Positions 2,315 to 19,560 of a stretch of DNA of 64,000 nucleotides are shown piece after piece. Below the pieces are notes generated by a model. That model ran no database searches, was not told the origin of the DNA, and worked only from the letters and a program-made list of their open reading frames with translations. Positions within the stretch are counted from its first letter, which is position 1, and every line of letters begins with the position of its first letter. This DNA is from Bryum argenteum (Eukaryota; Streptophyta; Bryopsida; Bryales; Bryaceae): the NCBI GenBank assembly GCA_037043015.1, contig CM073330.1:14340512-14404511 (forward strand), written 5' to 3'. A program made the translations under genes and the position numbers.

Positions 2315-5300
2315 CTAGTGTGCTTCCGCCCAGGACACGACATCATCTCCCAAATTCATAGGATAGGGATCGATATTGTTATCCTCCTCAGACGCTGCAG
2401 TACCCTCCTCAGCACCCTCTTCGGCGTTCTCTCCGTCAGAACTATCGGAAGTAGGTGCATCTCTGGGCAACCTCTCTTGCCCAAGAATCACGTCCTCCTC
2501 CGAATCAGACCCAAAAACATCATTTGCAGCCTTGGTGCGGGTCTCTCGACGATGATCTGAGTTGTCTTCTTCATTGTCATCGTCGCTAAGAGTTTCGGGG
2601 AGGCCCGTGGAGGCGAGTGTCTCCTCGAGGAGTGTAGGGGGATTTAGGTCGACGCAACCTAAATCCCCACCGCAGGCCAAGGATCCGCGCCGCCTGACCA
2701 ATGGAAGAGCTTCATCAATGTCGTCATCGAGGCCAATATCTATGAGCAGGTTCTTGTAAACAGGATCGATGCTCTGTATGGGCTCAATACTCAAAGCCCG
2801 CACGCCAGAAGGCCCAGTAGATGCCCGATCGCGACTACGACCACGACCACGCCCACCACGAGCACCGGATGAAGGACCGCCACCAGACGAGGGATTACTA
2901 CCACGAGCACGGCCACCAGACGACCGATTACTACCACGAGCACGGCCACCAGACGAAGAACGACCACCACGAGCAACACCAACAGACGACGGATCGCCAC
3001 CAACAGTAGACGACGGATCGCCACCACCAGCAGAGGACGGATCACCACCATCAGTAGACGAAGGATTCCCACCACCAGCAGACGATGGTTCCCCTTCAGG
3101 AGCCACAGTATGAGAGGATGCCTTACCACGACGAGCACGACCACCAGATGCCGATGCCTCGCCACGACCACGACGAGCAGTTCCGGTAACCCCAGCCTGA
3201 GGCAAGGACCCAGGCTTCGGACCATGAACCCAATCTGGATTCACATAAGCGTCCACACAGAAGTCGTTCGGATCCAGATTGAAACTACTGTCACGGACGG
3301 CTTCGTACTTCTCCAACTCATCTTTGTCCTCGTAGACAATATGAGTTTGAAGATTAAGCATCTGCGAAATGAAAACACAAAGTTAGTCCACTAAGAAGAA
3401 CAGAAGAGCAGATGGGAACTTGAATAAACAGACATTTAGGTGGCATCGACCTAAACGCCCAAATCAGTGTCAAGTCTGACATACGCCAAGTAAATCAAGT
3501 GTACTTTAGATAGAGACGAATTAAATTGACAAGTGAAACGGAATAGACGATGCGAACTTGACAAAAACAGGCATTTAGGTGGCATCGACCTAAACGCCCA
3601 AAGGAATGACAAACTTACAATTCCTGCAAGCATGGGCTTAGATCCACCCATGATCGACAGAAATCTGTTTCCTGGAACTGTAAACATTCGCAGTACGCGA
3701 ATGTATAATTCCAAGCGCAACTCGTTGTCGTTGATGCAGAAATCGAACTCCCTCTAAGTTCCTGGCTTATGATACAGGGGCAACGCCGGGGCATAGAATA
3801 CCTCCGGAATTTCATCGAATATCTCCGATACCTGGGAGGTTCTCTTGAGGAGAAACAAGAGCGGAATGCGGTGTTTGTCCACGACCTTCCCCTCCAAGAT
3901 ACCGTTGAGACGCTCGTTGTTCGCGGGTGCTTACTGAACTGCCTTCGACTTGTACATATCCTTGAAAGCGTTGAAATATACGACGGCCTGACAATGACGA
4001 TCGCTAGTCTCCGTTATAATAAGCCAGACGTCAGGATTCTTGATGGAGGGGTCATACACAGAATCCTTCCAAGCATTCAGGAAGTCCTTGAAGTACACGT
4101 TCGAAATATCATCCACCCTGCTACTATGGCCCGGGACGCATCTCAGGTCGATGATGCCCAACGCGCATCTTCCATCGTCCCAAGCATACCCATTATCCCA
4201 GCGAGCGAACTGAAACGCCTCAGCATCAAACATTCTTGTATGAAGTTCCAGGGTCGGCAGCGAAAAATCCCCTTTCACTTCCAAGAACTTCTTGAAGAAC
4301 TCCGCAACGTACTCGGAGAACTCTTCAGAACTCTTGTTCTTCGTCCTCTTCTGCCGGTAGTCGCTGAAGAACACGTCCCCGGGCACGGAAAGAAGCATCG
4401 ACATGGTTTGCCGATTTACGTTGTATTCGAACTTGAAAAGCTTCCACTTTTCAACCACAAACTTGTCAGCACTGTCGAATAATCCCAGTGATGGCTTGAT
4501 GTTGTGGAACTCTCTTGCAATGCATTTCTTCCTCTTGCGCTTCTCCAGCCAAACCTTTATTGCAACGCACTCCCAGTAATTCAGCTTCGGTTTCTTCAAG
4601 GACACCTTGGGATACGGAAGGTCCCGGTCCGGAGTCCTATTCAGAAGATGAAGCGCTAGTGTCTTGAAGTCGTGCTCCTCGAATCCAGACATCTGCCTGA
4701 AGGTATCGCGAGTCAATACGATTTCCTTGGACTTGGTCTCCCAGTCGAGATTCCGGTTGAAAGGCTCGCAAGTGTCGGGGTCTATCAACTCTCCCATCTG
4801 GACTGCAATGATAACTTCGGACCACAGCTGGTACACCTCCTCAGAAGCGGTGATGATTTCTAGTTCGTTGAGGAGGTCCGCTGGCTTCAAGAGCTTGTCC
4901 TGGGATTTCGTGTTGATGCTCATGAAGCGTTTCACCATGGCCTCTTCAAAATCATGAAATGAAAGGTCGACATCAATTCAAGAACATGACGAGATGATCA
5001 TTTAGCTCGAGTCCAGCTAAACGCACGGAATTTAGGTCGAGTCTACCTAAACGCACAGAATTTAGCTCGCATCGACCTAAACACCTGAAACTTAGGTGGC
5101 GTCAACCTAAACGCCACAAATCAAGCAGAGAAAATTATAAGAAAATGCAAGACTTACCTCATAGTTCTTTCGAGCGATAGCTTGCTCGATTGTCTCCCGA
5201 CCAGACTTGGGCTTTGCACCACACTTCGCGGGCGACCCGTATTCAATCCAAACACTTCTCGCGGCCAATATGTTTGTGGCCCACGATGGTGTGAATGTTC

Positions 5301-6822
5301 CCGCGTTGTTGGTCTTGTTCGCCATGATGGACACGTCCATGATCATCTTCGCATCTGAATGCCAGACAACATGAGCCCGCCAGGTCTTCAAGGCGGTAAT
5401 CTTATCCTCGGAGATTCTAGCCTCCTTGATAAGCTCATTCGCAGCTTCGACATGATGCTGCCCATCGATCACACGGAAGTTGCACTTTGACTCGAGAAGT
5501 GCATTCCAGTCCCAAGTCGGAGGAGCCACAGTGATGATGGGCATGATGATGATGGTCTGCCTTGAATTCAAATCGATTGAATTCGTCAGGATATTCTTGT
5601 AATGGACAACTCCAGCAGGCTCAAGCTTCCGGACGATGAAACGCGCATCAGCTTTCTCGAGGAGATCGATGTCCACATTGACAGGAGCCGAGTCCTTGCC
5701 CAAAACGTAACAAGGCTCGCACTTCTCCCAGAAGTCCTTCAGTGTCTTACTAGCAGCTTCGTAGTCGATGTCCTTCTCGGTTGTGGCATGCTTGATTGAA
5801 GGATTCATATACGTAATTGTATTGCCTGCCAAACTACTCTTGATTCTCTTCGGCTGCTTTACTGGCGATGGGTTCGAGTTGCGGCGTTTCCGCGAAGGCG
5901 TAGGAGTTACCTCGATGGAGGCCGTACCAGACCGCGCTGTTCCTGACCCGGTACCCTCCTCAAAAGCAGGCATGAGTGCCTTCCTTGCGGGTGCTTTGCC
6001 TTTCGCCTTGCATCTCTCGAAGTCGTTCAGAGCACTCCAGATATGCATGCAATACTGCTGGTAGGTCTGCACAAATTTCTTTGGAGAGCTAACATTCAGT
6101 ATGCCACCGACGATGTGGTCCAGGAGCCCCGCCTCCATCTTCCCCACCATGTAAGACTTGATGGTGTCGTGCGAGTATCGCACTTCATTCGAGGGAAAGA
6201 CGATGGTGAAGACGAATCCACGAACGTAGGTCACCTTCAGCGTGATGAACAGGTGTGACTCCTCATAGTTCACCGCGTAAATGAAAGTGTCGTTGCAGAA
6301 TGGGAGATGGGCAGGATTAGTTCCAGACTGTTGAAACAGGTGAAAAATTCCTTTCTCCTTCGGGTACTAGGACCACGACAGAATGGAATTTGGCTTAGGA
6401 GTCCACAACATGCCGTAATTCTCGACGTCCGCGACAGCAGAGGCAAGTACATCAGTGGCCTCAAAAACAAGGGGCTTCAGGTATCCTTCAATAGTGCTAA
6501 GGTCAAACGGTACCTAATTTTAAAGAAGCAACGAGATGTGCGTTTAGCAGGCATCTACCTAAAAGATGTGCGTTTAGCAGGCATCTACCTAAAAGTGGTG
6601 TGTGAAACAGGAACCTACCGAAAAAATGTGCGCTATGATGTCATCTACCTAACATCTACTGATAATGAACTAAAAAACAAACAATCAATATTTTAAAACA
6701 AACCATCAAAGTACAAGAAAAATTCATACCTGATTGTCTTGAGGTTCATCCTGACTCCCAGAACGGATGTCCCTCTCTGCGGGAGCGGGAACAATTGTAG
6801 CAGTCTGCTTCGTGCGAGCCAT
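2315..6822 (-). CDS. Element-encoded protein: H3-tail-like N-terminus, ParB-like motif, DNA-methyltransferase-like fold, RG-rich acidic tail (three in-frame stops)
   Basis: Four exons, all joined in phase 0: 6822-6730 (donor CAG|GTATGA), 6513-5158 (acceptor AATTAG, donor GAG|GTAAGT), 4941-3619 (donor ATT|GTAAGT) and 3361-2315 (acceptor TTTCGCAG). The frame spans about 1272 codons. Residues 2-8 are ARTKQTA, the histone H3 tail. Basic nuclear-signal-like clusters (RKRR, KQPKRIK) lie near residues 235-260. VIDGQHH at 379-385 is ParB/DGQHR-like. Residues 740-945 follow the beta-class N4/N6 methyltransferase order: IIDLRCVP where DPPY is expected, then a pre-motif-I helix, LSIMGGSKPM where FxGxG is expected, then VYEDKDELEKY. 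The last exon has GGGDPSS and RGG-type repeats and a D/E-rich end. In-frame stops lie at 6369-6367 (TAG), 3933-3931 (TAA) and 3756-3754 (TAG). GC content is far above the flanks. The domain calls are motif-level inference; catalysis is doubtful because both key motifs are changed. Confidence 0.6.
3362..5157 (-). repeat. Palindromic units inside introns 2 and 3 of the ParB/methyltransferase-like gene
   Basis: The span covers two introns with exon 3 between them. Intron 2 (5157-4942) carries four back-to-back copies, about 5000-5117, of a unit shaped TTTAGGT-N7-ACCTAAACGCAC. Intron 3 (3618-3362) carries two copies, near 3434-3460 and 3570-3600, each with TTTAGGT and ACCTAAAC arms around GGCATCG. 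Intron 1 (6729-6514) carries further copies at about 6535-6660. The exons contain none that I can see. Confidence 0.7.
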
Positions 6823-7760
6823 GTCTGCAATTCAGCGCAATAACTGTGTGATTAGCAAGGAGCTACAGAAAGAGCTAAGCGATATCAGGCATGAACCTAA
6901 CAGCTGTTCGTTTCTGAGGACTAAAAGACCTAAAAGATGTGCGTTTAGCAGGCAGCTACCTAATTTATGGTCGTTTAGCAGGCAGCTACCTAGCTAAAAG
7001 ATATGCGGTAAGCAGGAAAACACCTAAAAGATATGCGTTCAGAAGGCATGTACCAAAAAATCTGAGCGTTTAGGAGGAAGCTACGTATGGGCTGTGCGTT
7101 AAGGAGGCAACTACCTAAAAAATGTGCATTTAGCACGGTGCTACCTAAAAGCTGTTCGTTTAGAAAGCGTATATATAAGGTGTGCGTTTAGCAATTAGCT
7201 ACCAGAAGCTGTGCGTTTAGAAAGAAGCTACCTAAAAGCAGTGGATTAAGTACGCAACTACGTGAGAGCTGTGCGTTTAGAAGGCAGCTACCTAAATAGT
7301 GTGCATTTAGGAGGCAGCTACCTAAAAGTGTTCGTTTAGGAGGCAGTTCCCTTAAAAGTGTGCGTTTAGGAGGCAGCTACCTAAAAAGTGTGCAATTAGG
7401 AGGCAGCTACCAAAGAAGTGTGCGTTCAGAAGGCAGCTATCTAAAAGTGGGCAATTAGGACGCAGCTATCTAAAAGTGGGCAATTAGGACGCAGCTACCT
7501 AAAAAGTGGGCAATTAGGACGCAGGTACCTAAATAGTGGGCAATTAGGACGCAGGTACCTAAAAAGTGTGCGTTTAGGAGGCAGCTACCTAAAAGTGTGC
7601 GTTTAGGAGGCTGCTACCTAAAAGCTGTGCGTTTAGCTCGAGAAATGGGAGATACCAGAAATTTCCACTTAAAAGATGTGCGTTTAGCTCGTGAAATAGG
7701 AAATTTCTCATTTTGCGACCTAAATGCACACCCATCGACCTAAATGCACACCCATCGACC
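6530..7760. repeat. Left array of ~28-30 bp palindromic units
   Basis: Dozens of diverged tandem copies of a unit reading about GTGCGTTTAGGAGGCAGCTA followed by CCTAAAAG. Arms TTTAG/CTAAA face each other around the centre, so each unit could form a short hairpin. The array covers intron 1 and the region upstream of the start at 6822. Copies at 7430-7560 form a homogeneous subgroup with GGGCAATTAGGACGC, a sign of local expansion. The last units near 7720-7770 change to the form CGACCTAAATGCACACCCAT. Confidence 0.85.
6730..6822 (-). other. First exon encoding the H3-tail-like N-terminus
   Basis: A 31-codon exon opening ATG-GCT-CGC-ACG-AAG-CAG-ACT-GCT, that is Met followed by ARTKQTA, then leaving the H3 sequence for TIVPAPAERD and an acidic/Gln-rich stretch. 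It ends exactly at CAG|GTATGA and joins in phase 0 to the next exon at 6513, whose frame stays open apart from one TAG for 452 codons. This supports the ATG as the true start. After Met removal the protein would begin like mature H3. Confidence 0.6.
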
Positions 7761-7949
7761 TAAATGCACAATGTTACTTCAGCTATGGAAAATTAAGCGA
7801 GCAGAGAAGTTGAAAAATGCAACATCAAATTCAAATTGCAATGCTGTAAAGAAATTGCATACCTGAAGAAGATTGAGAGAGCACAAAGAAGCGCTGAAGC
7901 AGTCCGAATGCGCAGAGACCTAGCCACAAATCAGCGTTAAACACACAGC

Positions 7950-8740: not shown

Positions 8741-11700
8741 GCTACACGTTTTTAATTCAAACACTCTAATCCGCAATATCTATTTTTGCATGTCTTTTTT
8801 TGCACTTTCATTACTTACAAAATGTCCAAACTTATTAATTTTCTAATTCTTAGAATATTCTTTGAATCACTTTACTGACTTTTTGTGATTTATTTAACCC
8901 CAAAAAGTCCAATCAAGCGAATTATGATCGAACCTCAATTTGGAAGAGCAATAAGCAAATTAAAAAAGTTACTTTTTTATGTACTTTGTTACATATTCAA
9001 AGATTAATATGTTATAAACGCCATTCAATTTAGATAACTATAATTGATTTGATAGATTGTTCCCAATTAGCCTTCTATAACAAACAAAACAAAGTTTTAT
9101 TATTGTAAGAATATTTGACGTAAATATTATGAGATCCCATCATTTACTTGTACTTTATTACTATTTTATCATTTAATATGTGATTTTAGTGGAAGATAAT
9201 TGTTTCTAATTATAAACTACAAAAATTAAATTCATACCCGATTTGGTTATTAATCAAGTTTAGTTTGTGTTCTAAAATTTGCAAGTGCATACAATAAACT
9301 ATGAATTCAAGGTATGCAATTAAGAGAAAACAACTCTTGTTTTCGGGTTCCCAAGCCTGTGCTTTACCATTGCAAGCAATTTTGTGAAATTAAAAATAGT
9401 ATTTCAATATTTATTCTTTTCATGGTTTAATCTTAGAAGATTCTTAACAATTTTGTAATGAGAAGTTTTTTGATTCAAATGATTTTGCTTTTGGATTAGC
9501 AATAATGTTTAAACAACACTAAAAGTGAAGAACGTATGATACTTGAACAGCTATATTTCCCTCATCCACCGTTAGAATTCAACTTAATATTTTTTGATGA
9601 CCCTCAATTACTGTGTAGTCTAAGTGGTAGAAACCTAAATAAGAACAAAGATGTTTTGAACATAATGCATTAAATTGATAGGTAAGAGTCTAATTCTGAG
9701 CTATATTTTTTTTGTAAAATGTTCGGTAGTTTTTACCATTGCATGGCTTTTATTTCTGCCAAGAAATTGTTTGGATGTATTTTTGTTGAGTAAAGGACTC
9801 GTAAAAATGAATAGGATCAACATTTTCTCGTTGGTGATTATTATAATGCAATATGTATATTAGTAGCAATTTTACCTCCAAGTGTATATAAATAATTTTG
9901 TAGTTAATTTTAAATATTAATATGTTATGATCTTAGAATTTATAAGGCACCAAATTTTGATCCACACGATCTCCGATAAGTCTATTACAAGTTTGTACGA
10001 TTGAACTTCTAATAGGTTATAATGAATTTTATCTAAGACGATTTTTATGAAAATGTTCTATTTTGCTAAAAGTAGACTCAGCCGTTTAAAATTTAACTTC
10101 AAAATATCAATTTAATGATCTCTATTTGATTTGCTATATTGTTCCGAATTACTTTTCAATCACAAACACAACAAGGCTTTATAATTGTTATACTTTGTTC
10201 TATTTCACGAAAATTATTAAGGTCTCACATTAATTACTTGTATTTTATTTCGATTTATTCATATAAGAACACAATTAGCTAGAACACAATTTTCTTAGTT
10301 ATTAGTAATATATTAGTAATTACAGTTCTAATGTAGAATGTTTTCTTAATGTTTGAAATGTTTGGTATAAAATAAAATACATAAATAAAGTTTAATAAAA
10401 AAATACAAAAATAACACAATTATTACATTTTCTAATATTTTTTGAATATATAAAGAGTTTTTACATTTACATTCCTTACTTATTTATTATTGTTAGTTAT
10501 ATAAATTGCTTTCATAACATTACATTTGGACGCGATTTCGTCAATAATATTTTCCGCATTTTACTAAAAAAAAATATATATATATAATATTCATAAGATG
10601 ATATTTACATAGCCAAATAATGGTATTTTTATCATCATTTCATTAATCTATTTTTCGATTATTTTTAAACATTTTGTTTATTTTGTACTGTTTATTTTGT
10701 TTATTTTGATCAGAACTGTATACATCTAATACTAGGATGATTTTATATATTAAATCTTATAATTCATACATGCTAACTTTTGATTTAATCAAAATTTATA
10801 ATTTTTCTTATTGTTTAATTTGCTATTTTTCTTCTTTGTTTGAAATTTAAATCAAATTATATAGTTCTTAGTAAATAAGAGTAAAATAACTTATTTATAA
10901 CATAAAAGTTTGAATATTTCAATCTGACATTTCTCCGATATTCTAGTTAGTTAAAAAAATACTGGTAAATTATTTCTTCTTTTCGTGAACATGACTTCTT
11001 AAATTTGTTTTAAGTTTTATATGCGACAATGTATATCAAACAAAAAACGGTATATATCAAATAAGCAACAGTGTATATCAAATGAACAACGGTGTATAGC
11101 AAGCAAAAACGTTGTTTAAGTAATGATAAATTCACAATTTAAAATGTAGAAAAGAAAATTGTTATTCTGTATCTTCTTATATTTCAAAATTGCAATTCGC
11201 CTAGGCGTATTAGTTCAGAAAGAAACACAATCTCAAACTTGGTGAAAAAAAACTTTGTATTCCTTGATTTTACAGTTTCATATCATAGGTGTAGCAATGT
11301 TTTAACTTTCCTCAACATAGAAGAATGCAAAATATATAAGACTTATTGCAATCTTTTCGCACCAAATTGAAACTCAACACAAGTCGAGTGTCGTCTTTCA
11401 CTTGCTCCAAGGAATGTAAGCAGTTGCTTTCTACCATTGCTTTATACAATTGCTTTACAATTCCGCGTGAGACTTTGTTTGTTCAGATTTAAAACTCAAG
11501 AAACTCAAGACAAGCGCCATTCAAAACAAGGTGTATTTGCCATGTACATTGAAGTGTCGCGTTAGTAATGCATACTGATATATTGTAGAATAATGTAAGA
11601 TTGACTTTATAAGAACGTTTATTTATTTAAAAGTATAGTTTCAACAAATAATTTCAAAAGTATAATTTCAATCAAGGTATATAATTTTAAATTTTTTTAA

Positions 11701-13800
11701 TTTGAAGTATGAACTTCTCTTAAAAAAAGAAATGTCCAAAATTAAGCACACTACTTAAAATAAATTAAAATAATATTATATTGCTTAGAATACATCATAA
11801 TGGTAAGTAAAGAGTTTTATATGTTTATGATTCATTATAATTATTAAAACGTAAACAATATATGATCAAATAAACTCGATTTGGTTAATAGATGTAATTC
11901 ACTACAATGGTATTATTTACTAAATTTGAGAAATATTACATATTTGACTAAATATGAACAATCCACAATTTACAATTAAAAACAAGAGTTGCAAAATATT
12001 TCTAAAATATAAGTTCTATGAAGATTCTCTTTAAAAATGTAAATTATAAGGTCATGGATAGAGAAATCTCTCTATATTTTAAAATTGCTAAATAAGCTAA
12101 AAGTTCATATTTAGTTAAATGATGCATAAATGAAGGTTAAGCTTGGTTCAAACTTAATGTATATAAACATTACATTTCGCTCAACTCAAGGTCAATTTTC
12201 ATCAATTACATAATCTGAATATTTCCATTCTAACGAATTACGTGTTTTAAGTTTAAGCTTAAAGAACATCAGTACTAAAAAATTTCATTTCCTTAATTAG
12301 TTTTCAGAAATCTTATTCTTATGATTTCATAAGATCAAATAATTTAAGACATAAGCAAGATATGTAAGATATGTGGGTGCTTGTGAATTGCAATTAGATA
12401 AGTATATATTAACATAATATTAACTCGTATAATAAGTCGAACGTACAATACGAATCACATGTATATCTAGTTTAATACAAAATACATATTTATATCAAAA
12501 ATTGGTTGTTTCAAATTATGTTTACTTAGTTTGTTTATTATTTACATATGAAAATTTATTCTGTCATTAGTATATGAATAATATAAATTTATCTAAAATT
12601 TAAGAATAATTTTAGTTTGTTAAAATATATTATATTTTGTTCTTAAATTTATTTAAAGTAAAATACTTTTTTTTTTTTTTAAATTACAGTTGTTTTTACG
12701 TTTAGTTTTAATGATTTTATAGAAATTTTTTTGATTAGTTTGATAATTTATAAATGGTTGATGTATTTAAAATATACATTGAATTATTACTATTAACTTT
12801 TGTGAATAAATAAGTTTTTTATAAATAAAACATGTAAATGTTACAGCTATAAAAAACTTATATGAATTGATACGTAATAAGCTAAATTGTATATTAAAAT
12901 TAACAATATTAGATGAATTCTATTTCTTATTTTTTTATTTATTTAAAAGTTATATGAATGTTTTAGTTTTCAAAAAGTTATAAAAAGATATATTTTAAGC
13001 CTTTATACTATATTTAAAGCCTTAAAAATCGTTCTATCCTTAGATATAATATTTGATACATCATTTTTGGTATCAAAATAATATTAAATAATTTGCTTTT
13101 CAATTGTAGATATTAGTTTTATTATATTTAAAGTAAGGTATACTAAAGTTAGTATTCAGTAAATAAGTATGAACTTATAACAAAATTCTTATTAAATTTG
13201 GTCAAGTAGTATAAGATTAATTAGGATTCAAACATTTTAAAAGTAGTATTCTAATTTTTTTGTACATGTATTTTACGCAAATTATTCTAATCCAAATATT
13301 TGGAAAATTACGTTCAAGAACCTACAAATATTAGTACTCATACTTTCTAACTGAGGTATTCTAGGATTACAATTGTTGACTTTAGGGTTTAGGGTTTAGG
13401 GTTTAGGGTTTAGAAAACCTTAAATCGTAAACTCTAAAGATTAGTAACTCGTAAAGTATATGTACTAATATAGGAATAATTTAGTTATTTTGAATGTGTT
13501 ATTCTAAGAATCGAATTAGTAGATTGTGTTATTTTGAATTATTTTAATTCATCTATTTTGGGATTGATACAAAGTGAATTATTTAGGACATCTTTAGAAA
13601 ATGTAATAGAAAGAGTATTAAATTACTTATCAGCCTATGTATAATTCAGAACTTAATGCATGATTTTGAAATGAATAAGTTAGTTGCATTACGGATTTGT
13701 TTTTTGATTTTTTTTAAAAATTTGATTTTATAAGTAATTTATTTTAATCACTGGAATTATGTCTTAATTTTTTAATTAAAGTCAATTTGAGACTAAATTT
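8741..13800. other. AT-rich, gene-less core
   Basis: About 5 kb of very AT-rich DNA with no credible coding frame (the longest is about 60 codons), no splice-bounded exons and no copies of the palindromic unit. It contains a telomere-like run near 13.38 kb and a few short local repeats, for example three near-copies of GTATATATCAAATAAGCAAC around 11030-11100. It is bounded by GC-rich blocks on both sides with abrupt composition changes. Confidence 0.75.
13381..13413 (+). repeat. Interstitial telomere-like repeat (TTTAGGG)4
   Basis: Four perfect TTTAGGG units followed by TTTAG, the plant-type telomere repeat, inside the AT-rich core and about 400 bp from its right edge. It is a short interstitial tract, not a chromosome end, because the sequence continues on both sides. 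Confidence 0.9.
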
Positions 13801-13810
13801 TTTTTTATCA

Positions 13811-14330
13811 TTGCATTTAATTGGGGCAGCGGGCACCCCGCCACGTCATGAGGGCGGGCGGCGGCAGCCCCCCACTCGACCATCATCATGCAGGCGACCC
13901 GCCGCCGCCGTTGGGGCGACTTCCCGCCGAATTTTTTTTTGGAGTTTCCCGCCAGCCAGGGGCCCTATCCGGCTCGCTCCGCCAGCCAGCGCTCCTTTAC
14001 CTGCCGAGCAAGCTGTCGAGCAAGCTCCGTTAGCTCCGCTCCTTTGTAGCGCCCTGCTCCGCTTCTTTGCAGCGCCCTGCTCCGCCAGCTCCGCTCCTTC
14101 GCAGCGCCCTGCTCCGCCAGCTACGCTCCTTCGCAGCGCCCTACTCCGCCAGCTCCACTCCTTCGCAGCGCTCCGCTCCGCACAGCCCAGCGTTGCTCCG
14201 CAGAGGCCAGTGCCACTTCTTGCGTCACTGCATTGCGCTCCGCGTAGTTGCTGCTGCCACTTATCGCGTCAGTGCGCTAGGGTGTGTTTGTGCGCTCTAT
14301 CAGGTACGCCATTACGCAATTGCAGCGTTA
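13811..14330. repeat. Right GC-rich block with ~32 bp tandem repeats
   Basis: Opens ATTTAATTGGGGCAGCGGGC at the edge of the AT-rich core. From 14030 to 14180 it holds about four tandem copies of a ~32 bp unit (CGCCAGCTCCGCTCCTTCGC then AGCGCCCTGCTC). Its pyrimidine skew is the reverse complement of the purine skew in the left block. Open frames across it are low-complexity Ala/Ser/Leu-rich and probably not genes. Confidence 0.6.
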
Positions 14331-14439: not shown

Positions 14440-15850
14440 CACAGTGTGCATTTAGGTCGATGCCTGTGCATTTAGGTCGATGCCTGTGCATTTAGGTCGC
14501 AAAGACAAGTATTTCTTATTTCACGAGCTAAACGCACAGCTTTTAGGTCGCAGCCTGCTAAACGCACAGCTTTTAGGTAGCAGCCTGCTAAACGCACAGC
14601 TTTTAGGTCGCAGCCTGCTAAACGCACAGCTTTTAGGTAGCAGCCTGCTAAACGCACAGCTTTTAGGTAGCAGCCTGCTAAACGCACAACTTTTAGGTAG
14701 CATCCTGCTAAACGCACAGCTATAGGTATCAGCCTGCTAGACGCACAGATTTAGGTAGCAGCCTGCTAAACGCACAAATTTAGGTAGCAGCCTGCTAAAC
14801 GCACAGATTTAGGTAGCAGCTTGCTAAACGCACAAATTTAGGTAGCAGCCTGCTAAACGCACAGCTTTAGGTAGCTGCTTGTAAAACGCACAAATTTTAG
14901 GTTGCTACCCGCTAAGCGCACGGTGTATACGTCGATGCCTGTTGTACGCAGTGTTTGAGTCGCTACTTGATAACCGCACAATAGTTAGGTCTCTCCCATC
15001 TTAACGCAGTTTTAGGTCAATGTCTGCTAAACGCACAGTGTGTTTAGGTCGTTGTCTGCTAAACGCACATTGTCTTGGTCGCTGTCTCCTAATTGTACAT
15101 TGTTTAGGTCGCTGTTCTAATCGCACATTGTTTAGGTCGTTGTCTGCTAATCGCACATTGTTCAGGTCGTTGTCTGCTAATCGCAGTCTTGGTCAATTTC
15201 AACTAAACGCAGTGTGTTTAGGTCGCTACCTGCTTAATGCACAAATATTAGGCCGGTGCCTTGTAAATTCACGGTGTGTACTTCGATGCCTATTTAACTT
15301 AGTGTTAAGGTCTCTGCCGGGTAAGCACACTGTGTATATCGATGCCTGTTAAACTTAGATTGTGTATCTTAGAGTGTTTAGGTCGTTGCCTGCTAAACGC
15401 ACTATTCATGTCACCTCCAACCGATCGCAGTGTTCAGGTCGCTCCCTTTTAACGATCAGTGCTTGGGTCTGTGTCTACTACACAATCTGTGATTAGGTCC
15501 CTGCCTCCTAAGCTTACTATGTAGGTCTCTGCTTGTATATTTCAGTGTTTAGGTCGCTGCTTCCTAAACGCACAGTTGTAAGAACTCTCGGAACTGAATG
15601 TAGTGTTAGGTCGTTGTTTGCTAAACTTATAGTGTTTAGGTCGCTGCCTGCTAAACATGCATATTCAGGTCGATCCCATCTACAGGCAGTGGTTAGGTCG
15701 TTGTCTGCTTAACTCAGTGTTTAGGTCGATCCCAAATAGATGCAGGGGTTAGGTCGCTGTCTGCGTAATGCAGTGTTAAGATCGCTGCTTGGTAAACGCG
15801 ATCTGTTTAGGTCGATGCCTCCTAAACGCACAGTATTTGTTTAAGTTATT
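14440..15850. repeat. Right array of ~31 bp palindromic units (inverted relative to left array)
   Basis: About twelve well-conserved units from 14525 to 14890, each near TTTAGGTAGCAGCCTGCTAA followed by ACGCACAGC. The core TAGCAG-C-CTGCTA is a perfect palindrome. From 14890 to 15850 the units become progressively diverged (TTTAGGTCGNTGNCTGCTAAACGCA). The unit is the reverse complement of that in the left array. It lies upstream of the gene starting at 16107, mirroring the left arrangement. Confidence 0.85.
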
Positions 15851-16106
15851 GTTTCGAGCTATGTCCACAGTGTCAAGGTTTTGATTGTTTCTATTTGATG
15901 TCAAATGATAATTTAGGTAGGAATTTAAGGTAGGAATTTAGGTAGGAATTTTAGTCCAGTCGAGCTTAATACTAATTCCATAGGTTTTTCTCAGCATGTT
16001 CTGAGGTTCCATGTTTGCGTGTTCATTTCCACTAATGGTTATTTGAATCGTTTGTAATGTTCTATAGATTATTCACGGAGCTATAATCAGGGTGTGATCG
16101 CTGTAC

Positions 16107-18985
16107 ATGGCGAGTAGTGCGTCCGATGACGACTGGGACAGTCGAGGACTTTCTTCAGAGGTATTATAATCTTCACGGCTTTGTTTACATCAACGTCTAT
16201 TGTGGTTCCTTGTTTAACAGAATTGTTTTTTGGTTATTAGGATTTGGAAGATGTTGAGCTCGTTCTGCCGGATCGATTGAAGGATTGCCCTGGACTCCCG
16301 AGATGCAAATGGATAACCAAATTTGTGACACTATTGAATCCTGGAGGGGCCATTGTTGCAGAGGGTATTTGTCAAAGTGTGGGGTCTAATTGTGTACTGG
16401 GCTCCGATGACGAGCCTTTGCGAGATGATCAAGTAGTTGTTCAGATCGTAAAGTGCTTGGATTTAGAGTTTCTACCTCCTGATACAATATTTCAGTCATT
16501 AAAATGGGATCTCAGCCACGCCATTCACGACGGTTGGTCTTTACTTGATCATTTGCATGAGGAGCAATACAATATTGCGGTTTATGCTCGTGATCAACCA
16601 AAGAGGAAAGGAGTTCGTCCGTATACTTTGGGAGAAAGACATCCAAAGATCCACAGAACTAGGAGGGAAGAGCAACTATTGACCGTAGAGTCTGTCAATT
16701 TGGTTGCGAGTATGAAGTGTTGCAGTAAAAATTGCTGTGAGCCATTCCCTCGCCAAAAGATTCTAACCTTGAGAAAGCAGATGTACGAGTCGTCAGATTT
16801 TAAGTTCAAGGCGCACTTTAAGATTGATGTACATCATCGATTTCATAAAACTGCTGACGGAAGTATGATGGTTACGACGGAGGGTATTGATATTTGTGCT
16901 CGAGCTTGGCAGAATATTACTGGAGTTCCTCTGGCAACGTTTTACAGGAAGAAAGCAGAGGCGGCTGCTGGCCTACGGGCTCGACATCACGGGAATGTTG
17001 GCTCCAAGAAACCACGACTTCATGTGAAGCAAGCTGCTGCAACGCTGAAAGTGTTAATCGACAACGCAGCTGATCATATGCCGCACAAAGCGAAGATGCT
17101 GAGTAATGGACTCAAAGTAGTTTCACGGTCATTGCCTTCGTCCTTCAAATGGAAAGATACGATCCCAGATATCAATCTCATCAACGAGAGGTTGGGGCTG
17201 AAATTTATCGCGCAAAGTACTCTCAGCAAGATTAGGCGAACAATATTCTCCGAGTATTCAAAGAAAGCACCCGGAGACAATTTTGCGCGATGTGCAACGT
17301 GTGATAAACTCGAGACCATGATCAAGTCCATGGTGCCAGATTCAAGTGAAGAGAACATGTGGATCAAAAAGCTTAAACTACACTTGGACCATAAGCGAAC
17401 ACATCGTGAGTATTATTATACAAACCGCTCTTTATCTATTCAAAGGCCCAAAGATGTTCTTTGCATTATCCACGACAAAATGGATCATGCGAAAACGGCT
17501 TGTCCTTTGTTCTCTCACAAAACAAAAACAAATGATGCACTTATGAAACTTCCTATTGCTGTGACGGGAATGATTGCTCACGGGCATTGCGATGTTCGTT
17601 ATGCTCACTATGGACTTGACATTTATCCGAGTGATTGCAATCACACTGTTGGATCTATTTTGAAGCTTCCGCGGGATTTAGAAGGAGTTCCGATATCACA
17701 TTCGAAATCATTGTTTGCTGGATCTGGAACGCATCCTTTGTTTGAGGCATTGCTTGTCAGAAAAGATGCTTGTTTGAACTCTCTTTTGCCTGAGAGTGAG
17801 TCATCAGGAGCTACGGAATCCCTTCCTCCAGTTTTACATGTGCAACTTGACAACGCCGCCTCCGATAACAAAAATCGGTTTATGTTTTGTTTTTGGTCCC
17901 TTCTGGTACATATGGGCGTTTTTAGTGAAATTTACGTCAATTTTCTTTTAGTTGGACATACTCATGAAGATATTGACGCTCTATTTGGTCGTTGGAGTAT
18001 GATTTTAAAGGAAAATGACTATTGGACGATTCCTCTTTTGATGAAATCGTTCATGGATGCTGAGGCACTCCCAGTTATTCCGCATTTGATTGAGGAGATT
18101 CCCGATTTTAAAGGATATATAAAGGATTTCATTGCTTCTAAAGACGAAGTTCTTGTTGGTCATTCGGAAGGGCAACAATTTAAATTTTTCAAACATGACA
18201 ACGGGTGGCCCATGATGAAGTACAAGATGTTATGTTCTGACAATGAGTGGCTTCCATCGACCAGTGAAGGAATCAAATTGTGGAAAGAGAATTCTATTAC
18301 TGGTATGCCTCTATTGCCTACGGGAGAAATGAAGCCTCCAGCGTCAATTCCTATGAAGAATCTCGATGAAATTGTGAAAGGTATATCAGGTTTCATTAAG
18401 TTGTGGGAAACTTCATGTGCTCAAGACTTGTCAGGAGAGTTTCGTCGACGTCATGATTCCGTTTTACGATACTTGCGTGCTGTCAATGATTTATTGTTGG
18501 CGCCTATAGAGGTTTCTTCTACTTTAAAGAATGGATGTTGGCCTTTGTCTCGAGTACCGTTGATTTGAGAATATCTGAATACTGGCGAATTACGCGAGGA
18601 ATATGGGCAAGACCCCCATTTTATTGGCCGATTGTGTGATAAACCAAGAGAGTCATTTCGCGTTGGTCGAGATGTTTATGCTGGCTACTTCTTGGCTTTA
18701 CGTCCTGCAGATGGAGATGCTCGACCCTTTTGGATTGCGCGGGCTTTGACTGATTTCGATGTAGATCGCAACAATCCAGGATGTATTCAAATTCAATTTT
18801 TTAAACCTTTTAGCAAGCGCGCTCTTGTTCAAGATACCTATGTCGGTTGGGACACACAAAAGAATTTTAAATGGGTTTTTGATGACAGCCATGACCCGGT
18901 TTGGCTTTATGCTGGTGCTATTTTTACAGCATGGAAATCGAGTGCCAAAGCTGGATCTCAACGTCCAACAATCTCAATATCTTAG
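16107..18985 (+). CDS. DUF7869-like transposase candidate with C-terminal beta-barrel-like region (one in-frame TGA)
   Basis: Exon 1 is 16107-16160 (starts MASSASDDDW, donor GAG|GTATTA). Exon 2 starts at 16241 after TTATTAG, phase 0. The frame spans about 932 codons with one TGA at 18566-18568. C-terminal residues after it (EYLNTGELREEYGQDP, then VGRDVYAGYFLALRP and PFWIARAL) look like the normal end of the protein. The core has LDNAASDNKNRF with Asp at about 555, and VGHTHEDID at about 589-597. This matches plant and animal DUF7869 proteins in my memory and is plausibly an RNase H-like acidic triad. Cys pairs (CCSKNCC, CATC) lie N-terminal to it. Its role as the transposase of the surrounding element is inferred from context. 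It may be a decayed copy, or TGA may be a recent CGA-to-TGA change. Confidence 0.65.
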
Positions 18986-19049: not shown

Positions 19050-19560
19050 TGATCATTCAAGACATTGGTATTTAGGTCACGTCGACCTAAATAGTCAATC
19101 GAGGCTTTAGCTATTATGGAGGACAGAGCGGATAAGAGCAACAAAGTTTTTTGGGTTTTGATGTGCAGGAGGAATTAGCATTTTGATCACTGAAGACATT
19201 GGTATTTAGGTCACGTCGACCTAAATAGTCAATCGAGGCTTTAGCTATTATGGAGGACAGAGCGGATAAGAGCAACAAAGTTTTTTGGGTTTTGATGTGG
19301 AGGAGGAATTAGCATTTTGATCACTGAAGACATTGGTATTTAGGTGACGTCGACCTAAATAGTCAATCGCGGCTTTAGCTATTATGGAGGACAGAGTAGA
19401 TAAGAGCAACAAAGTATTCTGGGTTTTGAGGTGGAGGAGGAATAAGCATTTTGATTACTGAAGACATTGGTATTTAGGTCACGTCGACCTAAATAGTCAA
19501 TCGCGGATTTAGCTATTATGGAGGACAAAGTGGGCAATAGCTCGTCCATAATTTTTTCAC
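19050..19560. repeat. 134-bp tandem repeat, about four copies, each with a perfect palindrome
   Basis: The marker GACATTGGTATTTAGG occurs at 19061, 19195, 19329 and 19463, giving an exact 134 bp period. Each unit carries TATTTAGGTC-N5-GACCTAAATA, a perfect 10-bp-arm inverted repeat related to the palindromic unit of the two large arrays. It starts about 70 bp after the stop codon of the gene ending at 18985. Confidence 0.9.

Follow-up and report, generated by a model that had tools for sequence, protein, structure and literature searches.

A mobile element of the moss Bryum argenteum encodes a predicted protein that opens with a copy of the N-terminus of histone H3, placed directly after the presumed initiator methionine in two subfamilies, as ARTKQTA and as PRTKQTAR. 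Proteins that mimic histones and transposons that counteract silencing have each been described; what appears to be new here is a transposon-encoded H3 N-terminus that selection has kept between subfamilies about half identical to each other. We analysed one copy within a stretch of 64,000 nucleotides (the window) together with its relatives across the genome. The features of the window copy are as follows:

6823..6837, minus strand: acceptor-like bases (..TGAATTGCAGAC) just upstream of the ATG, where a 5′ UTR intron probably ends
6730..6822, minus strand: first coding exon, M-ARTKQTATIVPAPAERDIRSGSQDEPQDNQ, identical to H3 residues 1–7
6514..6729, minus strand: predicted intron 1, GT..AG, phase 0, with element repeat units inside at 6534–6632
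5156..6513, minus strand: exon 2, ~452 codons interrupted by a single in-frame TAG; no Pfam family
3931..4977, minus strand: exon 3 frame, no known family; a stop closes the window copy where relatives continue
2332..3382, minus strand: exon 4 frame, acidic and of low complexity
6928..7774, no strand: repeat array upstream of the H3-like gene, its ~30-bp units bearing half-sites of the TTTAGGT/ACCTAAA type
14441..15954, no strand: arrays 5′ of the DUF7869 gene, of which 14441–14932 is the inverted counterpart of 6928–7774
16241..18985, plus strand: second, divergent gene with DUF7869 (E 3.5e-41), candidate transposase
19071..19493, no strand: four palindromes TTTAGGTSACGTCGACCTAAA, 134 bp apart, near the right element end

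On the minus strand, positions 6822 to 6730 read MARTKQTATIVPAPAERDIRSGSQDEPQDNQ, with a GTATGA donor directly after. The translation opens M-ARTKQTATIV and stands in phase 0 with an exon of ~450 codons; the acceptor of intron 1 (...AAAATTAG) has its last base at 6514, and exon 2 runs from 6513. An earlier note on this DNA had read here a first exon encoding Met-ARTKQTA that then leaves H3, correctly in both coordinates and translation. It had also described a good donor and an in-phase join to the long exon, of which the donor and the predicted phase stand; exon 2, at 452 codons, is closed by its one TAG, and the copy is thus broken. We predict that exons 1 and 2 are spliced because the window copy shares GT..AG borders, phase 0 and an open continuation, all in matching positions, with a relative about half identical to it. 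Probing the genome with the joined exons of this relative, L078, returned 40 exon-2 pieces and 26 exon-1 pieces, every one separate; none of the 40 candidates scored was a contiguous copy lacking the intron. Because the probe consists of exons alone, the pieces necessarily end at the junction and leave the exon borders unproven. In the element copies that we read, the likeness to H3 ends with residue 7 (or 8), and neither the H3 tail past residue 8 nor the histone fold is present in them.

In the 258.8-Mb, 25-contig genome, whose contig C10 holds the window, M-ARTKQTA is encoded at 55 places, against 0 for a reversed control, and the earlier judgement that seven exact N-terminal residues are hard to put down to chance is thereby upheld. 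Twelve of these places are true H3 genes, all of which were read and continue RKSTGG. The other 43 are copies of the element (36 read, 7 located just 5′ of exon-2 matches), in agreement with the earlier attribution of the protein to a mobile element. The looser pattern M-x-RTKQTA occurs at 112 places genome-wide (100 of them itemised; reversed control 0), and M-PRTKQT at 59 further places, where it opens a subfamily 51–56% identical in exon 2. The earlier note had allowed that other copies might show no conservation of ARTKQT; aligned at the first exon, they conserve it in the two numerous subfamilies. We rejected a chance origin of the H3-like start on the empty reversed-pattern controls and on the silent-only variation described below.

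One comparison is between the window copy and the PRTKQTAR subfamily, which starts M-PRTKQTARIV. Exon 2 is 52% identical in this pair and the remainder of exon 1 can hardly be aligned, while 6 of the 18 bases of RTKQTA differ and all 6 differences are silent, with a simulated neutral chance of 1.5–3.5 per 100,000 for a motif that was chosen before the tests, for its fame. Nine of the first 11 residues are conserved, a level equalled by 13% of the 11-residue windows of exon 2, so that in conservation the tail matches the better-kept stretches of that exon. Within the ARTKQTA subfamily, the motif is intact in 35 of 40 scored copies, chosen by DNA similarity; the other 5 carry one change each (a stop at position 5, R2H, K4E, M1I and Q5H). 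We aligned 33 of these copies, after setting aside 5 that were not fetched and 2 with indels, all 7 of which bear the motif. Expressed per codon and per pair of copies, silent differences in codons 2–8 amount to 0.193 and amino-acid differences to 0.034, codon 2 being uninformative because the placing required GC at its start; codons 12–31 show the reverse, 0.020 silent and 0.177 amino-acid differences. Counted by hand, variants number 10 silent and 5 replacement in codons 2–11 versus 5 and 19 in codons 12–31 (Fisher p 0.007), or, for variants present in at least two copies, 4 and 0 versus 2 and 12 (Fisher p 0.005), in copies that are related and hence events that are not independent. Because the variation is silent-only or nearly so, selection on the peptide is well supported by the sequences compared.

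In the PRTKQTAR subfamily, the motif lies just upstream in 32 of 65 5′-complete exon-2 copies, and its presence varies with the number of stops in exon 2: 11/15 with none, 8/15 with one, 5/13 with two or three and 8/22 with four or more. This loss with rising stop count looks like decay after insertion. By motif search, 4 of the 15 stop-free copies lack the exact motif.

To cover more divergent subfamilies, we took 20 loci around exon 2 and sought their first exons as M-starting frames, ranked by likeness to the first 16 residues of the window copy. Recognisable first exons were found in 18; in the remaining two (L062 and L064), no M-starting frame resembled those 16 residues. The starts, with percentage identity, are:

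AHTKMTAT and ARTKMTAT: 86 and 85%
ARTKQTAT: 79%
AGIKSTAR, AGIKSTTR, TRIKSTAR, AHIKSTAR (two) and ARIKSTAR (three): 75–81%, one 72%
ARTRTTAR: 71%
ARSRIITR: 68%
PRTKQTAR (five): 54–56%

Across these 18 first exons, 17 have A or P at residue 1, 13 have R at residue 2, all have K or R at residue 4, 17 have T at residue 6 and 16 have A at residue 7. Outside the window copy's clade, residue 8 is R; position 5 is the most variable (Q, M, S, T, I). Intermediate subfamilies (ARTKMTAT, ARIKSTAR, ARTRTTAR) keep the frame and drift at positions 3–5. Lysine 4 is replaced by arginine in the 71% and 68% copies, and both T3 and Q5 are replaced in the ~72–81% subfamily. For the window copy and the ARIKSTAR subfamily, dN about equals dS over codons 2–11 (0.282 and 0.273), indicating that the latter lost or changed the constraint to match H3 exactly. 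The earlier suggestion of an H3K4-type mimic on a mobile element therefore survives as to an H3-identical start conserved beyond chance, and its label 'H3K4-type' proves too narrow, given the changes at K4, T3 and Q5. A tree built from the first part of exon 2, some inner nodes of which are weak, sets PRTKQTAR opposite ARTRTTAR, ARIKSTAR, ARTKMTAT and ARTKQTAT, and groups ARTKMTAT with the ARTKQTAT copies. This tree leaves two histories: an ancestral RTKQTAR with about three later alterations, or an RTKQTA that arose twice.

The H3-like gene and the DUF7869 gene together form one two-gene mobile element, because their divergent pairing recurs: at 33 scored DUF7869 places (of 822 candidates), the two genes lie divergently within 15 kb in 25 and within 30 kb in 29, with other arrangements within 30 kb in 2. 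The H3-like partner was sought among 40 first-exon rows and 80 of 107 exon-2 rows; those set aside were of PRTKQTAR type, a single row at 63%, or small fragments. DUF7869 is the sole Pfam match of the partner gene, which has no match to MULE-type transposases; it is our candidate for the transposase of what is probably a large plant DNA transposon. Homology of the window to other copies covers ~10 kb down to 2332 and resumes across 16241–18985; against copies L041 and L043 it ends at 2332, which indicates that the left end of the window copy is lost. The partner gene (16241–18985, plus strand) bears an HTHEDIDALF motif, and the name DUF7869 is absent from the open-licence PMC text that was searched. 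Between the divergent genes, positions 10001–14000 form a very AT-rich core of 23–25% GC.

Introns and flanks of the element carry palindromes of the form TTTAGSTCGANTCGASCTAAA. Of 32 such sites in L078 (at most 4 mismatches in 20), 20 lie upstream of exon 1, one each in introns 1 and 2, and 8 in intron 3; of the others, 1 is exonic and 1 downstream, the borders of the fourth exon being approximate. Genome-wide, the exact 21-bp palindrome of the L078 subfamily is found 5878 times, against 0 for a reversed control, regularly spaced in element introns and flanks; in the window, such arrays fall within 2.6–19.5 kb. The window copy bears a related form, its half-site concentrated at 2–8, 14–16 and 19–20 kb.

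We propose that the peptide serves as an H3 N-terminus decoy on a self-targeting, anti-silencing protein of the element, a reading that falls a little short of an even chance. The initiator methionine would be removed, exposing a free H3-like tail, [A/P]RTKQTA[R], and this tail would bind a host reader of the unmodified H3 N-terminus. The rest of the protein would tether the tail to the palindrome arrays that the element carries in its introns and flanks, where it would compete for or divert the reader and let the element escape silencing. Our first guess at the target is the VIM proteins, which we take to be the plant UHRF1-type proteins, and our second is LSD1-type demethylases. We infer the individual steps, namely exposure, reader binding, DNA binding, transposition by DUF7869 and anti-silencing; a self-addressed decoy is proposed because the element joins a VANC-like anatomy with a peptide resembling UHRF1 ligands. 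To our knowledge, readers of the H3 N-terminus use positions 1, 2 and 4, and position 5 little. The variability at position 5 across subfamilies is compatible with reader binding in this respect, and a PHD ligand is a poorer match for the subfamily that has lost T3. A more elaborate version is somewhat more doubtful: the peptide may be the fake H3 N-terminus of a self-addressed anti-silencing factor, diversified across the transposon family by an arms race, that blocks a host reader (VIM/UHRF1-type, another PHD protein or LSD1-type) and so DNA-methylation or heterochromatin maintenance on the element only. Matches to the SRA domain in the host number 13; the two read by eye combine SRA with SET and SRA with pre-SET (the latter cut at the end of its stretch), and both are SUVH-like. 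Judged by sequence features, the H3 proteins and SUVH-like genes of this genome resemble plant ones.

In Arabidopsis, VANC proteins of VANDAL transposons bind arrayed motifs and induce loss of silent marks (excerpts of PMC5735166 and PMC10398659), and VANC21 is enriched in introns, intergenic regions and terminal noncoding regions, binding motifs accumulated there as tandem repeats (excerpt of PMC5735166). The moss element resembles VANDAL21, as those excerpts describe it, in having a further gene beside a presumed transposase and motif arrays in introns, intergenic and terminal noncoding DNA. It differs in having DUF7869 as presumed transposase and no VANC-type Pfam domain in the exons searched. 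The transposase of VANDAL elements is of the MULE type, and we know of no VANC protein that bears a histone tail.

Peptides that occupy readers of the H3 N-terminus are known from animals. The PHD finger of UHRF1 binds ART in H3 and VRT in both PAF15 and DPPA3 (PMC11187062, partial text); mouse DPPA3 (Stella) competes UHRF1 off chromatin, human DPPA3 only modestly (PMC11187062 and PMC7060239, partial texts). The moss peptide shares with these ligands, so far as the partial texts describe them, a short H3-like xRT sequence, N-terminal in PAF15, that occupies a reader of the H3 N-terminus. Both are animal host proteins with a shared motif of 3 residues, against 6–8 in the moss element, whose likeness is one of sequence only. 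The SNAG peptide of SNAI1, GFI1 and SCRT1 offers another H3-tail-like sequence, which fills the substrate cleft of LSD1 in mimicry of the H3 tail (PMC5896174, partial text). Its bearers differ from the moss protein in being animal transcription repressors. Viral histone mimics such as influenza NS1 share with the element that a genetic parasite copies an H3-tail motif; the moss motif differs in standing at the start of a transposon protein and in being kept across subfamilies. SNAG peptides begin PR, and their sequence after P-R is unlike the moss peptide; the H3-like motif of NS1 is C-terminal and shorter. Judged by title and abstract start, none of the papers listed in searches of open-licence PMC text concerns a transposon-encoded H3 N-terminal mimic, and PMC3520747, in the part of its text consulted, concerns other matters.

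Whether the peptide is N-terminal bears on how it would act. Just ahead of the ATG, most copies carry an acceptor-like ...GCAG|AC-ATG (...GAATTGCAGAC-ATG or ...GAATGACAGTG-ATG) that resembles an intron end. A 5′ UTR exon probably lies upstream, and a coding exon there is possible, so that the peptide might be internal to a longer protein; we consider this improbable. It would agree with the CAG that most of the copies read carry two bases upstream of the ATG, as at an acceptor, and with the in-frame ATG that, provided the stretch is unspliced, lies 9 bases (3 codons) upstream in 4 of 5 PRTKQTAR copies read, the fifth having two (3 and 10 codons upstream). Against it, the ATG is kept in 32 of 33 aligned copies, although it was not a selection criterion; the window copy, if unspliced, has an in-frame stop 3 codons upstream; and the two bases between acceptor and ATG vary by subfamily (AC versus TG or TA), unlike a conserved codon. 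DNA similarity of the window copy spans −12 to +33 around the ATG against PRTKQTAR and −15 to +94 against ARTRTTAR, that between ARIKSTAR and ARTRTTAR starts 13 bases before the ATG, and in the closer pair of window copy and ARIKSTAR the alignment extends on through the arrays. Compared directly, ARIKSTAR and PRTKQTAR show no DNA similarity at the start, and ARTRTTAR and PRTKQTAR array matches only. Alanine or proline as residue 1 favours removal of methionine, which would thus be favoured in 17 of the 18 divergent first exons. We take the H3-like peptide to be truly N-terminal on these sequence patterns; an internal position would still leave mimicry possible, because an internal VRT can act, as in DPPA3 (PMC11187062).

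The decoy reading must also be weighed against other accounts of the constraint. The peptide could be selected for a role apart from mimicry, as a basic nuclear import signal, a DNA- or RNA-contact peptide or an N-terminal processing signal, with its H3 identity incidental. This is unlikely but carries real weight, since the ARIKSTAR and ARTRTTAR subfamilies retain the basic frame and not the H3 identity; yet a generic basic peptide does not need RTKQTA, and 6–7 consecutive H3 residues stand at the very start, with A or P as residue 1, in two subfamilies that use different codons. Less probable again is a lure in the manner of SNAG, which would not block LSD1-, WDR5/COMPASS- or ORC1/EBS-type readers but bring them to the element or to sites of integration. 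The PRTKQTAR form starts PR as SNAG peptides do, but residues 3–6 are unlike SNAG; the occupation of the LSD1 cleft by SNAG as an H3-tail mimic (PMC5896174, partial text) also speaks for a lure. That the peptide is a functionless relic of a captured H3 first exon is the least credible account. H3 genes are present in the genome (the 12 read), and an [A/P]RTKQTAR ancestor would be still closer to H3; however, the similarity ends at residue 7–8, and the silent-only change between subfamilies, with the silent/replacement reversal within one, needs present or recent constraint. As sole account, plain capture without function was rejected on that constraint.

Viruses and host regulators provide known cases of histone mimicry, and Arabidopsis those of transposon anti-silencing proteins, for whose stripping of silent chromatin we know of no established mechanism. 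The decoy reading, if true, would provide a concrete mechanism for transposon anti-silencing, in which a copy of the H3 N-terminus is joined to self-addressing repeats, and a natural high-copy probe for the plant H3-tail reader required in transposon silencing. The diverging subfamilies (ARTKQTAT, ARTKMTAT, ARIKSTAR, ARTRTTAR and PRTKQTAR) form a ready-made test series.

The body of the protein matches no established family. Pfam searches returned no family for exons 2–4 of the window copy at E 1, the VANC domain included, and at E 5 none for the second and third exons of L078. Profile searches across Pfam, NCBIfam and PDB likewise supported no family for either exon 2 or exon 3. Profiles of exons 2 and 3 found no relatives among viral contigs, nor did exon 2 among phages. 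Two single-sequence structure models reached mean pLDDT values of 33.7 and 35.5, which carry no confidence. Three PDB matches of exon 2 to WDR5 (E 0.5–0.7) were discarded, as the query residues involved (145–208) form a basic low-complexity linker. A search of the relatives, excluding the window copy, matched phrog_1033 (ParB-like) weakly in two of them (E 0.029 and 0.077), over the DGQHH-motif stretch of exon 2; the DNA binding proposed for the protein leans on these weak matches. Phage DNA methylases with a glycine motif follow ParB-like domains. Exon 3 of two relatives (L078:4201–5799 and L081:4178–5692, both minus strand) ends in ..FLSIMGGTKPMLAGI, which by eye resembles the glycine motif of DNA methylases and has no profile match to them.

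A basic linker in exon 2 reads GKAP(A/M) followed by R or K in the window copy (5158–6363, minus strand), L078, L080 and L081. It resembles H3 near K14 (GKAPRK), and may represent a further H3-like segment or else a nuclear signal.

Copies of the element are concentrated on the largest contig, C1 (44.1 Mb), where they are mostly broken; elsewhere they are more often open. Counted by hand, stop-free 5′-complete PRTKQTAR-type copies make up 5 of 48 on C1 versus 10 of 17 elsewhere. C1 may be a sex or heterochromatic chromosome.

In the better-preserved L078, exons 3 and 4 continue the gene, and farther along that strand the element also encodes an NIF/FCP1-type phosphatase-like domain (L078:650–1510, minus strand; Pfam NIF, E 1.3e-5). 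Its usual Asp pair reads, by eye, E-L-D in L078 and E-L-N in L080, and the domain is perhaps inactive. A protein resembling Pol II CTD phosphatases inside a transposon merits separate attention.
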